NCBI GenBank assembly: GCA_030950185.1
Contig: JAUZRU010000161.1
Span: forward strand, 1 to 37,887
DNA length: 37,887 bases
Source of the DNA: Paracoccaceae bacterium
Lineage (GTDB): Bacteria > Pseudomonadota > Alphaproteobacteria > Rhodobacterales > Rhodobacteraceae
Reading direction: 5' to 3'
The position numbers were made by a program, and so were the translations under genes. This document shows positions 26,133 through 30,071 of the stretch, in pieces. Each line of letters starts with the position of its first letter. The first letter of the stretch is position 1. The notes below the pieces were generated by a model. The model did no database searches, had not been told where the DNA came from, and saw only the letters and a list, made by a program, of their open reading frames with translations.

Positions 26133-26161
26133 TTGACCACGGACCGGCGGCGCCCTAATGT
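26133..26161 (+). promoter_or_regulatory. Putative carA promoter
   Basis: TTGACC (26133-26138) and TAATGT (26156-26161) are 17 bases apart. The -10 match is only moderate. If correct, transcription would begin near 26168, which would rule out the in-frame ATG at 26158 as a carA start and supports 26197. Confidence 0.42.
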
Positions 26162-26196
26162 CCGCGCGAAACGCCCCAGGAGTGCATCTTTCCGTC

Positions 26197-27366
26197 ATGC
26201 CCTATTCCGCCAAATCCCCCGAAAAACCAACGGGTTGTCTTGTTCTGGCCGATGGAACCGTCTTTTACGGCAAGGGATTCGGCGCAACCGGCACCGCCCA
26301 GGCCGAGCTGTGTTTCAACACCGCCATGACCGGCTATCAGGAAATCATGACCGATCCGTCCTATGCCGGACAGGTCATCACATTCACATTCCCTCATATC
26401 GGCAACACCGGCACCACGCCCGAAGATGACGAGGCCCCGGCCCCGGTGGCCCGCGGCATGGTGGTGAAATGGGATCCGACCGAGCCCTCCAACTGGCGCA
26501 ACAGCCAGGATCTGGCAAGCTGGATGACACAGCACGGCCGCATTGGCATCAGCGGTATCGACACAAGGCGCCTGACGCGCGCCATCCGGCAGCAGGGCGC
26601 ACCGCATATCGCCATTGCCCATGACCCCGACGGAAATTTCGACCTCGAAGATCTTGTTGCGCAGGCGCGCGCCTTTCCGGGGCTTGAAGGGCTGGATCTG
26701 GCGCGCGAGGTCACATGCGACGCCCCCTATCAATGGGACGAAATGCGCTGGGCGTGGCCAGACGGCTATGCGCGGCGCAGCGGCAAGGGCCATCGCGTCG
26801 TGGCCATCGACTATGGCGCCAAGCGCAATATCCTGCGCTGCCTGGCCAGCGCCGGGTGCGAGGTGACAGTTCTGCCCGCCACCGCCACGGCCGAGGATGT
26901 TCTGGCGCTGAACCCCGAGGGCGTGTTCCTGTCCAACGGGCCGGGCGACCCGGCGGCGACAGGCGAATATGCCGTGCCGATGATTCGCCAGATACTGGAG
27001 CGCGACATTCCGGTTTTCGGCATCTGCCTTGGCCACCAGATGCTGGCCCTGGCATTGGGTGGGAAAACGGTCAAGATGAACCACGGCCATCACGGCGCCA
27101 ACCACCCGGTCAAGGATCTTGAAACCGGCAAGGTGGAAATCACCAGCATGAACCACGGCTTTGCGGTTGATGCTGCCACCCTGCCCGAGGGGGTCGAGGA
27201 AACGCATGTGTCGCTGTTCGATGGTTCGAATTGCGGGATTCGCGTCAAGGACCGGCCGGTCTTTTCGGTTCAGCAGCACCCCGAGGCCAGCCCCGGCCCG
27301 ATGGACAGCTATTATCTGTTCGAACGCTTCGCCCAGGCGATCGCTGACAGAAAAGCGGCCCGTTAA
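26197..27366 (+). CDS. carA: Carbamoyl-phosphate synthase small subunit
   Basis: A 389-residue glutaminase subunit that passes ammonia to CarB for carbamoyl phosphate, feeding arginine and pyrimidine synthesis. The N-terminal domain starts CLVLADGTVFYGKGFG and has FNTAMTGYQEIMTDPSYAGQ. The C-terminal amidotransferase domain carries the nucleophile C277 in GICLGHQM and the His/Glu of QQHPEASPGPMDS. I use ATG 26197 because typical CarA proteins begin about ten residues before the LADG strand and because a candidate promoter overlaps the upstream ATG. carB is not adjacent in this window. Confidence 0.95.
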   Translation: MPYSAKSPEKPTGCLVLADGTVFYGKGFGATGTAQAELCFNTAMTGYQEIMTDPSYAGQVITFTFPHIGNTGTTPEDDEAPAPVARGMVVKWDPTEPSNWRNSQDLASWMTQHGRIGISGIDTRRLTRAIRQQGAPHIAIAHDPDGNFDLEDLVAQARAFPGLEGLDLAREVTCDAPYQWDEMRWAWPDGYARRSGKGHRVVAIDYGAKRNILRCLASAGCEVTVLPATATAEDVLALNPEGVFLSNGPGDPAATGEYAVPMIRQILERDIPVFGICLGHQMLALALGGKTVKMNHGHHGANHPVKDLETGKVEITSMNHGFAVDAATLPEGVEETHVSLFDGSNCGIRVKDRPVFSVQQHPEASPGPMDSYYLFERFAQAIADRKAAR

Positions 27367-27384: not shown

Positions 27385-27431
27385 CCGTTTTGAATAATTC
27401 TGTGCCCGGCGTTAACCGCGCAGGGCACAGG

Positions 27432-29297
27432 ATGAACGAGCATTCCCACAATTTCCAGAACGGAAACCGCGCCCTGCTGCCACCGAAATGCACCCGGAGG
27501 CTTGGCGACCTCCTGCGCGACAGGCATGCCATACCGGGCGAGTGTCTAGAAAGGGCGCTCGCCCGTCAGCGAAAAAGGGCGCTGCCATTGGGGCGGCTGC
27601 TTGAACATGACGGTATCGTCAGGCAGGAAATGCTGCTTGACGCCATCGCCGAACAGTTCGCGCTGGAAATCGTCGATCTGGCCGACCGACAGGCCGACAC
27701 CGACGGGCTGGCACGTCTTGGCCCCGATTTCTGCCTGCGCCATCAGCTGGCCCCGGTGAAGGGCACCGGCGGCATTGTCGAGCTCGTCTGCGCGAATCCT
27801 GCGGGGCTGTCCACGATCCGGGATCGTCTGGCAAACAAGCTTGGCCCATTCAGGGTGTCCCTTGCCCCGGCAGAACAGATCGAGGCGCTGATCCGCACGG
27901 CCGGCAATCCGATCCTTTCGAGTCGCGCAAACGCCCTTTGCCCGCGCGAGTTCAGCTGCCGCAGCTGGGCGCGCCCGCTTGGCTGGCCCGCGCTGCTGGC
28001 CGCCACCGGCATGGCCACGGGCCTGGCGCTGGCCTTTCCGACCGCTGTCATGTGGCTGGCCTTCATCTGGGTGCTGCTCAATCTGGCACTCACATCGCTG
28101 GTGCGCCTGTCGGCCCTGGTGATGCAGGTCGCAACCCGGCTTGCGCCCGCGCAGGCGCCTGCCCCGGATCCCGACTTTCCCCTGCCAATGGTTTCGATCC
28201 TCGTGCCCCTGCACAAGGAAGACGCGATTCTTCCCACGCTGATCAAACGGTTGGGTAACACGACCTATCCGAAAGAGGTGCTTGAGGTCATCATCGTGCT
28301 GGAAGAAACCGACAGTATCACCCGCAGCGCCCTTGAAAAACTGCCCCTGCCCACCTGGATGCGGGTTGTCGTCGTTCCCCCCGGCCCCTTGCAGACCAAG
28401 CCGCGGGCGATGAATTACGCGCTGAATTTCTGCCGAGGCGATGTCATCGGCATCTATGACGCCGAAGATGCGCCCGAAGCCGATCAGATCATGCGCATCA
28501 TACGCCATTTTCACGCCACCGGCCCCGAGGTCGCCTGTATTCAGGGGTATCTCGATTTCTATAACCCGCGCGAAAACTGGCTGGCGCGTTGCTTTACCAT
28601 CGAATATGCGCTGTGGTTTCGCGTTGTCCTGCACGGGATCGAGCGCATGGGCCTGCCCGTCCCCCTGGGCGGCACCACGGTTTTCTTTCGCCGCGAGGCG
28701 CTTGAAAAGCTGGGCGCCTGGGATGCCCATAATGTCACCGAAGACGCCGATCTGGGCTTTCGTCTGGCCCGGCTTGGCTATCGCTGCGCCTTTCTGGCCA
28801 CGACGACGCGCGAAGAGGCAAATTGCCGCGCGCTGCCCTGGGTCAAGCAGCGCTCGCGCTGGCTCAAGGGCTATGCGATGACCTGGATCACCCATATGCG
28901 CCAGCCCCGCCGCCTGTGGCGCGACCTTGGCCCGAAACGATTCGTCGCCTTTCAGGTGCTGTTGCTGGGCACGATCTCGACCTTCACGCTGGCACCGATG
29001 ATCTGGTCGCTCTGGCTGATCTCGCTGGGGATCATTCCCTTCTATGTGCATTTCCTGCCCTGGACGGCCTGGAAGATCCTTGCCATCGGCTTTGTCAGCT
29101 CTGAAATCGTGTTGTTCATCAGCGGGCTGTATGCGGTATCCGGCCGCGACCACCGCCACCTGATGCCCTGGGTCGCAACGATGATGTTCTATTGGCCGCT
29201 CGGCACGCTGGCGGTTTACAAGGCGCTGTATGAACTGATACTTGCGCCCTTTTACTGGGACAAGACAAGCCACGGCCACAGCCGGCCCGCGGAATAA
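27432..29297 (+). CDS. MshEN-domain glycosyltransferase, family 2, membrane-bound
   Basis: A 621-residue protein joining three parts. Residues 23-75 form an MshEN (GspE N-terminal) domain: two 24-residue half-motifs, R23-Q46 (RLGDLL...LERALARQ) and P52-Q75 (PLGRLL...LLDAIAEQ), exactly 5 residues apart as in the cyclic-di-GMP receptor MshEN. Two membrane helices follow (about 184-232). The GT2 domain (253-480) has DAED (343-346, the DxD), TED (436-438) and QRSRW (473-477, the QxxRW motif of processive synthases such as cellulose and hyaluronan synthase). Three or more helices close the protein (508-605). It probably makes or exports a surface polysaccharide under c-di-GMP control; E. coli NfrB is a relative with similar domains. 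The start is ATG 27432; an in-frame TTG at 27390 is less likely. It converges on the GntR gene, 13 bases between stops. Confidence 0.85.
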   Translation: MNEHSHNFQNGNRALLPPKCTRRLGDLLRDRHAIPGECLERALARQRKRALPLGRLLEHDGIVRQEMLLDAIAEQFALEIVDLADRQADTDGLARLGPDFCLRHQLAPVKGTGGIVELVCANPAGLSTIRDRLANKLGPFRVSLAPAEQIEALIRTAGNPILSSRANALCPREFSCRSWARPLGWPALLAATGMATGLALAFPTAVMWLAFIWVLLNLALTSLVRLSALVMQVATRLAPAQAPAPDPDFPLPMVSILVPLHKEDAILPTLIKRLGNTTYPKEVLEVIIVLEETDSITRSALEKLPLPTWMRVVVVPPGPLQTKPRAMNYALNFCRGDVIGIYDAEDAPEADQIMRIIRHFHATGPEVACIQGYLDFYNPRENWLARCFTIEYALWFRVVLHGIERMGLPVPLGGTTVFFRREALEKLGAWDAHNVTEDADLGFRLARLGYRCAFLATTTREEANCRALPWVKQRSRWLKGYAMTWITHMRQPRRLWRDLGPKRFVAFQVLLLGTISTFTLAPMIWSLWLISLGIIPFYVHFLPWTAWKILAIGFVSSEIVLFISGLYAVSGRDHRHLMPWVATMMFYWPLGTLAVYKALYELILAPFYWDKTSHGHSRPAE

Positions 29298-29310: not shown

Positions 29311-29976
29311 CTATTCGCCCGCCTGCCGCTGAACCCCCACCTCGCCGGCATCCAGCTTGAGCCGGGTTTCGAACGCATAGGACAAGTGCCGCCTGAGGGC
29401 CTGCGCCGCGCGCGCGCCGTCGCCTTCGCCGATGGCCCTGACGATTTCGGCATGTTCCTCCAGCGCCTGCACCCCGCGCCCGTCGGCCGCAAGCGAGGTC
29501 GTCGCCAGCAGGGCCATGGAACGATGCACCAGATCAAGCTGGTCGATCAGATAGCGGTTGTGGCTGGCCAGATGGATCTGCTTGTGAAACCGCCGGTTGG
29601 CGCGGGCCAGCTGGCCAGGGTCATTCACCAGGGCGCGGTCATGTTCGACCATACCCTGCAACACGCGCACCTCTTCCGGGGTGGCGTGCTGGGCGGCCAG
29701 CCGCGCGGCCAGGCCTTCGAGTTCCGTGCGCACAACATAAAGTTCGGCCAGCTGGTTGTGATCCAGTGATGCGACAATCAGGCTGCGGCCGGTGCGGGTC
29801 AGGATCGACTGGGTTTCAAGCCGTTGCAGGGCCTCGCGAATCGGGGTGCGCGACATGCCGAAACGCTCGGCCAGCTCGCTTTCAACCAAGCGGTCGCCAG
29901 GGCCATAAACGCCGGTGTCGATGGCATCGAGGATCAGATCATAGGCATCCCTGGGTGGCTCTTTGGCTGCGGCCAT
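29311..29976 (-). CDS. GntR-family transcriptional regulator (FCD/FadR type)
   Basis: A 221-residue regulator. The N-terminal winged helix (about 10-75) has the GntR signature RLVESELAERFGMSRTPIRE followed by ALQRLE. The C-terminal helical FCD domain (about 85-210) has the usual metal-ligand histidine pattern (FHKQIHLASHN and later HAEIVRAI, LRRHLSYA). FCD regulators respond to small organic acids. The start is ATG at 29974-29976 with GGAGA upstream; the longer frame from 30015 is not needed. The target is unknown; it is divergent from the HAD phosphatase gene. Confidence 0.92.
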   Translation of the reverse strand: MAAAKEPPRDAYDLILDAIDTGVYGPGDRLVESELAERFGMSRTPIREALQRLETQSILTRTGRSLIVASLDHNQLAELYVVRTELEGLAARLAAQHATPEEVRVLQGMVEHDRALVNDPGQLARANRRFHKQIHLASHNRYLIDQLDLVHRSMALLATTSLAADGRGVQALEEHAEIVRAIGEGDGARAAQALRRHLSYAFETRLKLDAGEVGVQRQAGE

Positions 29977-29986
29977 TTTGTTCTCC

Positions 29987-30002
29987 GTATACGATGGTCT
30001 AC
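29987..30002. promoter_or_regulatory. Possible GntR operator
   Basis: GTATAC-GATG-GTCTAC is a near-perfect inverted repeat (5 of 6 positions) 10 bases upstream of the GntR-family gene start, in the spacer shared with the divergent HAD gene. FCD-type GntR regulators commonly bind short GT...AC palindromes near their own promoter. The assignment rests on position and symmetry only. Confidence 0.3.
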
Positions 30003-30071
30003 AGCCTACAATCACCCGCGCCCGGCAATCAAGAGATTGCGCCCCCGCCTGCGGCGCTTTAGCCTGCCCAT

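Follow-up and report, generated by a model that had tools for sequence, protein, structure and literature searches.

One gene in the window, i.e., the whole 37,887-nucleotide stretch of Rhodobacteraceae DNA that was analysed, is best explained as encoding a c-di-GMP-gated polysaccharide synthase, a reading to which we assign a probability of roughly 60%. Its 621-residue product is a GT2 glycosyltransferase fused behind an N-terminal MshEN domain; the receptor motif, folds, and active site come from sequence and model, and from these we infer binding, gating, processivity, and export. More specifically, the MshEN domain (residues 20-160) would bind one c-di-GMP between both half-motifs, and ligand binding would alter the packing of MshEN against, or its tethering of, the attached membrane GT2, which would be released or activated by a logic analogous to that of PilZ in BcsA. 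The GT2 would then polymerise an activated sugar, and the growing chain would be pushed out to the surface by way of the enzyme's own membrane helices. In the window genome, a PleD-like REC-REC-GGDEF protein would supply the signal, and a GGDEF-EAL protein would remove it. The corresponding features are as follows.

27432..29297, + strand: MshEN-GT2 gene, with its start kept in L001 and L002 (35-row alignment A1)
27498..27569, + strand: first c-di-GMP half-motif, R23-Q46, with H32 at the Gly position (NF053729)
27585..27656, + strand: second c-di-GMP half-motif, P52-Q75, with P52 at the Arg position (NF053729)
27657..27896, + strand: MshEN C-terminal subdomain, residues 76-155 (Pfam PF05157, predicted fold)
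27981..28142, + strand: two probable membrane helices, residues 184-237 (model helices 184-201 and 203-237)
28185..28901, + strand: cytosolic GT2 catalytic domain, residues 252-490 (PF13641, PF13632, invariant residues)
28932..29243, + strand: C-terminal membrane helices, residues 501-604 (model; alignment of BcsA 4p00 with model residues 198-621)
26158..27366, + strand: presumed carA, ending 65 bases upstream of the synthase, a neighbourhood that is conserved (context, outside the system)
29311..30015, - strand: presumed GntR-type regulator gene, convergent with the synthase and conserved on its downstream side (context)
L048:1471-2859, - strand, window genome: REC-REC-GGDEF gene, PleD-like, with GGEEF signature
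L049:637-2181, - strand, window genome: GGDEF-EAL gene, with the GGDEF signature reading DGDGF

The names of the two neighbours are our assumption. The reading frame of the MshEN-GT2 gene is open upstream to a TTG at 27390, the composition of residues 184-237 makes their location in the membrane probable, and no exopolysaccharide genes adjoining the core gene were recognised upon reading the window ORFs.

By sequence comparison, the MshEN motif match is beyond chance. NCBIfam model NF053729 ("cyclic di-GMP-binding domain-containing protein, MshE-related") matches residues 23-75 (41.6 bits, cut-off 38, E 7.9e-11), Pfam MshEN (PF05157) matches residues 76-155 (38.2 bits, cut-off 23.1), and phmmer against the PDB returned PilF (6f8l, E 7.6e-13) and MshE (5htl, E 9.4e-9); a genome-wide motif search likewise places the NF053729 match at 27498-27656. 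Since the curated models match above their cut-offs, they confirm the observation of the first-pass annotation, made from the sequence alone, that the N terminus carries two MshEN half-motifs (R23-Q46 and P52-Q75) of 24 residues each, with a spacer of exactly 5. The contacts and turns described for MshE comprise R9, L10, G11, G18, L25, L29, Q32, R38, L39, G40, G47, L54, L58, and Q61 (PMC5013675), and 11 of the 14 are identical in the window protein, the exceptions being H32 (G18), P52 (R38), and I72 (L58). In addition, charged residues (R29 and E58, one per half) occupy usually hydrophobic positions.

The same annotation had correctly located H32 at the first conserved Gly and P52 at the second Arg, and had suggested that both may lower affinity. 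The relaxed search motif of Wang et al. disallows His at the Gly position, while allowing Pro at the Arg position (PMC5013675). Among 177 aligned copies, Pro is frequent at the first and the second Arg position alike (82 and 59), and the position of H32 is Gly in 136 and His in 3. A useful comparison is NfrB of E. coli, a glycosyltransferase that is activated by c-di-GMP and belongs to the phage N4 receptor system. From sequence and alignment, we read in it P489 for R9, Q498 for G18, and R512 for Q32, with 4 residues between the halves. E. coli NfrB binds c-di-GMP with a Kd of 1.0 uM (PMC8669469), and its binding-site mutants impair phage N4 infection (PMC8669469, PMC8669472), which weakens the expectation of reduced affinity. 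Judged by sequence, H32 and P52 are no more severe than the deviations of NfrB, which has more of them at these positions, and because NfrB binds despite these, H32 and P52 alone are no argument against binding. We regard c-di-GMP binding by the predicted N-terminal receptor domain as quite likely.

AlphaFold2 gave a full-length model of mean pLDDT 87.4 and pTM 0.87 from a 35-row alignment. As no MshEN chain was among the matches listed for the structure searches of this model, the N-terminal 170 residues were modelled separately (24 rows; pLDDT 82.7, pTM 0.73). The best PDB match of the N-terminal model was 5htl_B, i.e., MshE with c-di-GMP (Foldseek E 4e-9, TM 0.82 by target; VIA Z 16.8, rmsd 2.4, 137 aligned), so that the fold prediction agrees with the MshEN assignment for which it had been proposed as a check. 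PilF-GSPIIB with c-di-GMP came next (8pdk_A and 8pfa_A, Z 16.0; tied within 1), and XpsE (2d28) ranked lower (Z 13.9). XpsE is reported not to bind c-di-GMP, an example of how MshEN domains can lose binding (PMC5013675).

The window genome comprises 2.55 Mb in 167 contigs, with a stated completeness of 100%, and its c-di-GMP network is very small according to GGDEF, PilZ, and MshEN-motif searches. Profile searches found two GGDEF genes, one of them the GGDEF-EAL gene, whose GGDEF domain is probably inactive as judged from its signature, and no PilZ match in this genome; flagellin, too, gave no match there, and the sole c-di-GMP-motif match is the MshEN-GT2 gene. Across 198 genomes of the family, GGDEF was above cut-off in 186 and PilZ in 46. 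PilZ was without a match in 140 of the 186 GGDEF genomes, of which 133 carry the synthase and 60 the motif above cut-off. Likewise, a study of Dinoroseobacter shibae could identify no PilZ-domain gene, and CckA is discussed there as a c-di-GMP-controlled kinase in Rhodobacteraceae (PMC6473078). MshEN-GT2 is thus the only candidate of PilZ or MshEN type found, and other receptors may exist.

A homologue of the synthase was detected in 181 of 198 Rhodobacteraceae genomes from 197 genera (E <= 0.001). Three genomes with a weak GT match only (G017, 4.4e-13; G119, 4.9e-8; G172, 2.5e-7) were recounted as synthase-less, and G122, in which a partial copy lies next to carA where the contig stops, was retained, giving 178 synthase-bearing genomes of 198. 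When 197 fetched regions were probed with nine window genes, a GT match was obtained in 178 and carA directly before it in 166, the synthase being mostly followed by gntR and HAD. In loci from named records, carA precedes the synthase in 45 of 46, and the remaining locus starts inside the GT gene; in G083 and G149, the synthase copy does not lie beside carA. Given its wide occurrence and conserved carA neighbourhood, the carA-linked synthase is an old, mostly vertically inherited core gene.

Two records among these loci merit separate mention. JAHVJD010000005.1 (L043) is titled Nocardioides marinus and has a gene order of Rhodobacteraceae type (cox1, yqeY, carA, synthase, gntR, HAD, ubiH, agx); its title is probably wrong. 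Two contigs (L001 and L011) of the metagenome-assembled genome S012_94 each carry the synthase, whole in one and from residue 328 in the other, with 91% and 95% identity to that of the window, and this genome is probably a mixture of strains.

The synthase is missing from all 12 genomes that lack GGDEF versus 8 of 186 that have it, and from 10/10 versus 3/164 at >=90% completeness and <=5% contamination (Fisher values on this co-loss ignore relatedness). In these counts, the GGDEF match of G157 (1.5e-4) is under the cut-off and is taken as none; the raw tallies were 11 GGDEF-less genomes, in 10 of which the synthase gave no match at all, and 187 with GGDEF, in 7 of which it gave none. A proper carA match is absent from G102, G115, G119, G146, G164, and G181, two of which (G102 and G164) belong to the 12 GGDEF-less genomes, so the absence of the synthase there may be an assembly gap. 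In G109 (no GGDEF), the carA and gntR matches are ~50 bases apart, versus ~1.9 kb in the window, and in G029, G090, G033, and G172, ubiH follows carA at ~150, 110, 10, and 30 bases. Counter-examples are G176, with two GGDEF matches, from which the gene is cleanly gone (~20 bases from carA to gntR), and G001 (eight GGDEF) and G017 (sixteen), both without the synthase.

That synthase loss depends on GGDEF loss is suggested by a loss-only model on the carA tree (p 2e-8, or 7e-5 once the basal group is left out), although these p values are rough, the likelihood tests having used a single-gene FastTree with a midpoint root fixed as "both present", 163/182 rows, and lower-quality genomes dropped. 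Independent GGDEF/synthase pairs number 5 on the best carA tree and 2 on supported branches, and with two pairs, no significance is possible. Nearly even odds have to be given to the alternative that both merely disappear where lineages abandoned surface life, with no mutual dependence. Flagellin, used as a control, is missing from 10/12 GGDEF-less genomes and 27/186 GGDEF genomes, and it also reaches p 7e-5 (0.002 without the basal group) when both loss rates are free; of the 10 genomes without GGDEF that the carA tree includes, six cluster at its base; and in the fetched stretch, gntR and HAD are also gone beside carA in G029, G090, G033, G172, and G167. In contrast, 25 of the 27 flagellin-less GGDEF genomes keep the synthase, and a model in which GGDEF affects nothing but the rate at which the second gene is lost yields p 0.16 for flagellin (0.004 if the basal group is omitted), as opposed to the far lower values for the synthase. 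Moreover, G090 and G172 have flagellin and neither GGDEF nor synthase, indicating that a lineage can lose c-di-GMP synthesis and still keep motility genes. We read the evidence that synthase loss depends on GGDEF loss as suggestive.

Turning to the enzyme, the full D/DxD/TED/QxxRW set recognised at first pass is present (D294, D343-A-E-D346, T436-E-D438, Q473-R-S-R-W477), with the nuance that "DxD" reads D-A-E-D. PF13632 matches the GT2 domain with 92.5 bits, and D294, D343, E345, D346, T436, E437, D438, Q473, R476, and W477 are invariant in alignment A1. The D-A-E-D letters are identical at D169 of NfrB, a residue required for NfrB function (PMC8669469), and the function-critical D169, D267, and W330 of NfrB correspond to D343, D438, and W477 of the window protein. 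For the GT and membrane part of the model, the top VIA match was PcManGT (Z 28.7, 332 aligned), and matches were also obtained to E. coli BcsA (9fnn, Z 25.7), BcsA 4p00 (Z 23.8, 396 aligned), and the Chlorella virus hyaluronan synthase (Z 23.8). PcManGT is an archaeal mannosyltransferase that is not known to be processive and whose aligned entry, unlike the window protein, lacks a sensor domain. The modelled fold is compatible with polymer synthesis and export, yet PcManGT scores as high.

Relatives outside the family were sought in 190 genomes of the class, from which 20 loci were fetched; an MshEN-like N-terminal region was read in seven (G237, G371, G307, G206, G340, G318, and G305), and ORF reading recovered no GT in L280, L282, L290, and L295 despite an earlier match. 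Pfam MshEN was detected in both relatives tested (G237 and G206). In G237 and G371, MshEN-GT2 lies directly behind a BcsB-like gene, the product of which matches PF03170 in G371 (40.5 bits, cut-off 21) and, at 42% identity to the former, in G237 gives only 14.4 bits. Two loci outside the family (L276:5839-11447 and L277:5698-11399) each hold a compact gene trio that encodes a periplasmic BcsB-like protein, MshEN-GT2, and a hydrophobic protein of ~560 aa to which no Pfam model matched (37% identity between L276 and L277), possibly a Bcs-like system with MshEN replacing PilZ. Two small genomes of one other family (f19; G347 and G215, L292:7815-9281 and L294:8114-9013) have a GT relative without the MshEN region, split across two frames in G215, and no GGDEF match; in this class sample, the seven MshEN-type relatives are all in GGDEF genomes.

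Within the Rhodobacteraceae, a BcsB-like partner was matched in 6 of 198 genomes, the window genome not being among them, so the carA-linked copy would act without a BcsB-like protein or with another partner. In three genomes (G013, G088, and G107), the BcsB-like match adjoins a second MshEN-GT2 that is apart from the carA-linked copy, and it thus belongs with the other paralogue. These second copies are as follows.

G013:C1:712512-714670 (L243): second MshEN-GT2 beside a BcsB-like gene
G088:C3:535896-538205 (L244): second MshEN-GT2 beside a BcsB-like gene
G107:C17:80536-82599: second MshEN-GT2 beside a BcsB-like gene

The rank of PcManGT among the VIA matches and the window genome's want of a BcsB-like match would both fit a gated but non-polymerising enzyme, the GT2 adding one sugar to a lipid carrier or other glycan as PcManGT does. 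We consider this unlikely, given that the protein has the QxxRW motif and a membrane core aligned with that of BcsA over 396 residues, that the relatives in G237 and G371 sit behind a BcsB-like gene, and that the best NCBIfam match is PgaC/IcaA, though far under its cut-off. Polymer synthesis by the candidate GT2 is, in our judgement, likely.

Among known systems, NfrB resembles the window protein in joining MshEN and a membrane GT2 in a single chain with identical active-site letters, and both its c-di-GMP binding and its GT site are required for function (PMC8669469, PMC8669472). In contrast to the window protein, NfrB has its GT first and MshEN last, and the N-terminal sensor placement noted at first pass is borne out by BLASTP and profile comparison. 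The GT parts share 24% identity in one BLASTP stretch, the profile comparison aligned the MshEN parts only, and the genes have different neighbours (nfrA and ybcH versus carA and gntR). BcsA resembles the window protein in the fold of its GT2 and membrane core (Z 23.8-25.7) and is c-di-GMP-controlled through a PilZ domain at its C terminus, whereas the window protein has MshEN at its N terminus and a genome without a PilZ match. E. coli PgaC differs in having no MshEN and requiring PgaD (PMC10333796). BgsA, a mixed-linkage glucan synthase, is a c-di-GMP-activated GT2 without PilZ that, unlike the window protein, binds c-di-GMP via an unrelated C-terminal segment (PMC5567048).

Assignment to an established family was rejected in each case tried: (i) the NfrB model PRK11234 gave 40.6 of 1170 bits, with its MshEN part as the best stretch and the domain order reversed; (ii) the model for UDP-forming cellulose synthase (BcsA/CelA), TIGR03030, gave 55.5 of 699.1 bits, and a Pfam domain search found no PilZ domain in the window protein; and (iii) PgaC/IcaA (TIGR03937), the best-scoring NCBIfam GT model, gave 66.9 of 422.3 bits. 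MshEN-glycosyltransferase fusions were already noted in 2016 (PMC5013675), and NfrB is one characterised example (PMC8669469, PMC8669472). The titles and abstract openings searched contained no description of an N-terminal MshEN-GT2 or of the Rhodobacteraceae gene, nor of the N-terminal order, core status, sensor decay, or GGDEF co-loss, although the supplements of PMC5013675, which hold lists of MshEN proteins, may include the family. A term search of a 2022 survey of Rhodobacterales c-di-GMP genes found neither the word PilZ nor MshE.

The sensors of the group are far more uneven than had been assumed: in the 178 synthase-bearing genomes, the motif is above cut-off in 75, weak in 36, and without a match in 67, a split by best score per genome that is nearer 75, 34, and 69 for the core gene, as the best match in G088 and G107 is the second copy. 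In 62 aligned motif-less copies, conservation is 2% for Q46, 10% for G54, and 0% for Q75, versus 98-100% for the tested GT residues. The sensor is thus disabled in several lineages with the enzyme retained, and as the motif is lost yet the catalytic residues are kept, c-di-GMP binding is dispensable in many relatives. This decay is the main result against the c-di-GMP-gated reading and argues against a strict need for binding. Motif changes on the tree number 28 (an upper guess, on a weak tree), versus 35-52 in shuffles. Motif state did not follow GGDEF number (medians of 3 intact, 3.5 weak, and 4 none; p 0.17, intact versus none), and PilZ was matched in 15/75 intact, 7/36 weak, and 23/67 motif-less genomes (relatedness ignored), a tendency for PilZ to substitute for the lost motif.

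A vestigial sensor in the window protein, with MshEN serving as a structural or docking domain only and the synthase being constitutive or expression-controlled, is improbable: the many relatives that lost the motif, the deviating H32 and P52, and the precedent of XpsE (PMC5013675) speak for it, but the protein passes the curated cut-off with 11 of the 14 MshE letters kept, XpsE lost many more positions, and NfrB binds with comparable deviations. As for the preferred reading of a c-di-GMP-gated synthase, gating of the GT2 by c-di-GMP is, in our judgement, reasonably likely.

A broader proposal is put forward tentatively, and we think it rather less likely to hold than to fail: the carA-linked MshEN-GT2 may be the ancestral and main c-di-GMP output of the Rhodobacteraceae, filling the PilZ gap and making a family-wide surface polysaccharide. 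In small genomes like that of the window, a single PleD-type cyclase, a single GGDEF-EAL phosphodiesterase, and the synthase may together make up a minimal circuit, the gene being discarded when c-di-GMP synthesis was lost and its sensor repeatedly switched off where the enzyme was retained. Rhodobacteraceae make c-di-GMP, which has been measured in them, and PilZ receptors are mostly missing from them, so that the MshEN-synthase offers a concrete, widespread, and mostly syntenic candidate target. With the enzyme itself conserved, its sensor ranges from intact through weak to undetectable, which provides a natural series for the gain or loss of a signal input. If true, N-terminal gating of a BcsA-like core would differ mechanically from both the PilZ domain of BcsA and the C-terminal MshEN of NfrB.
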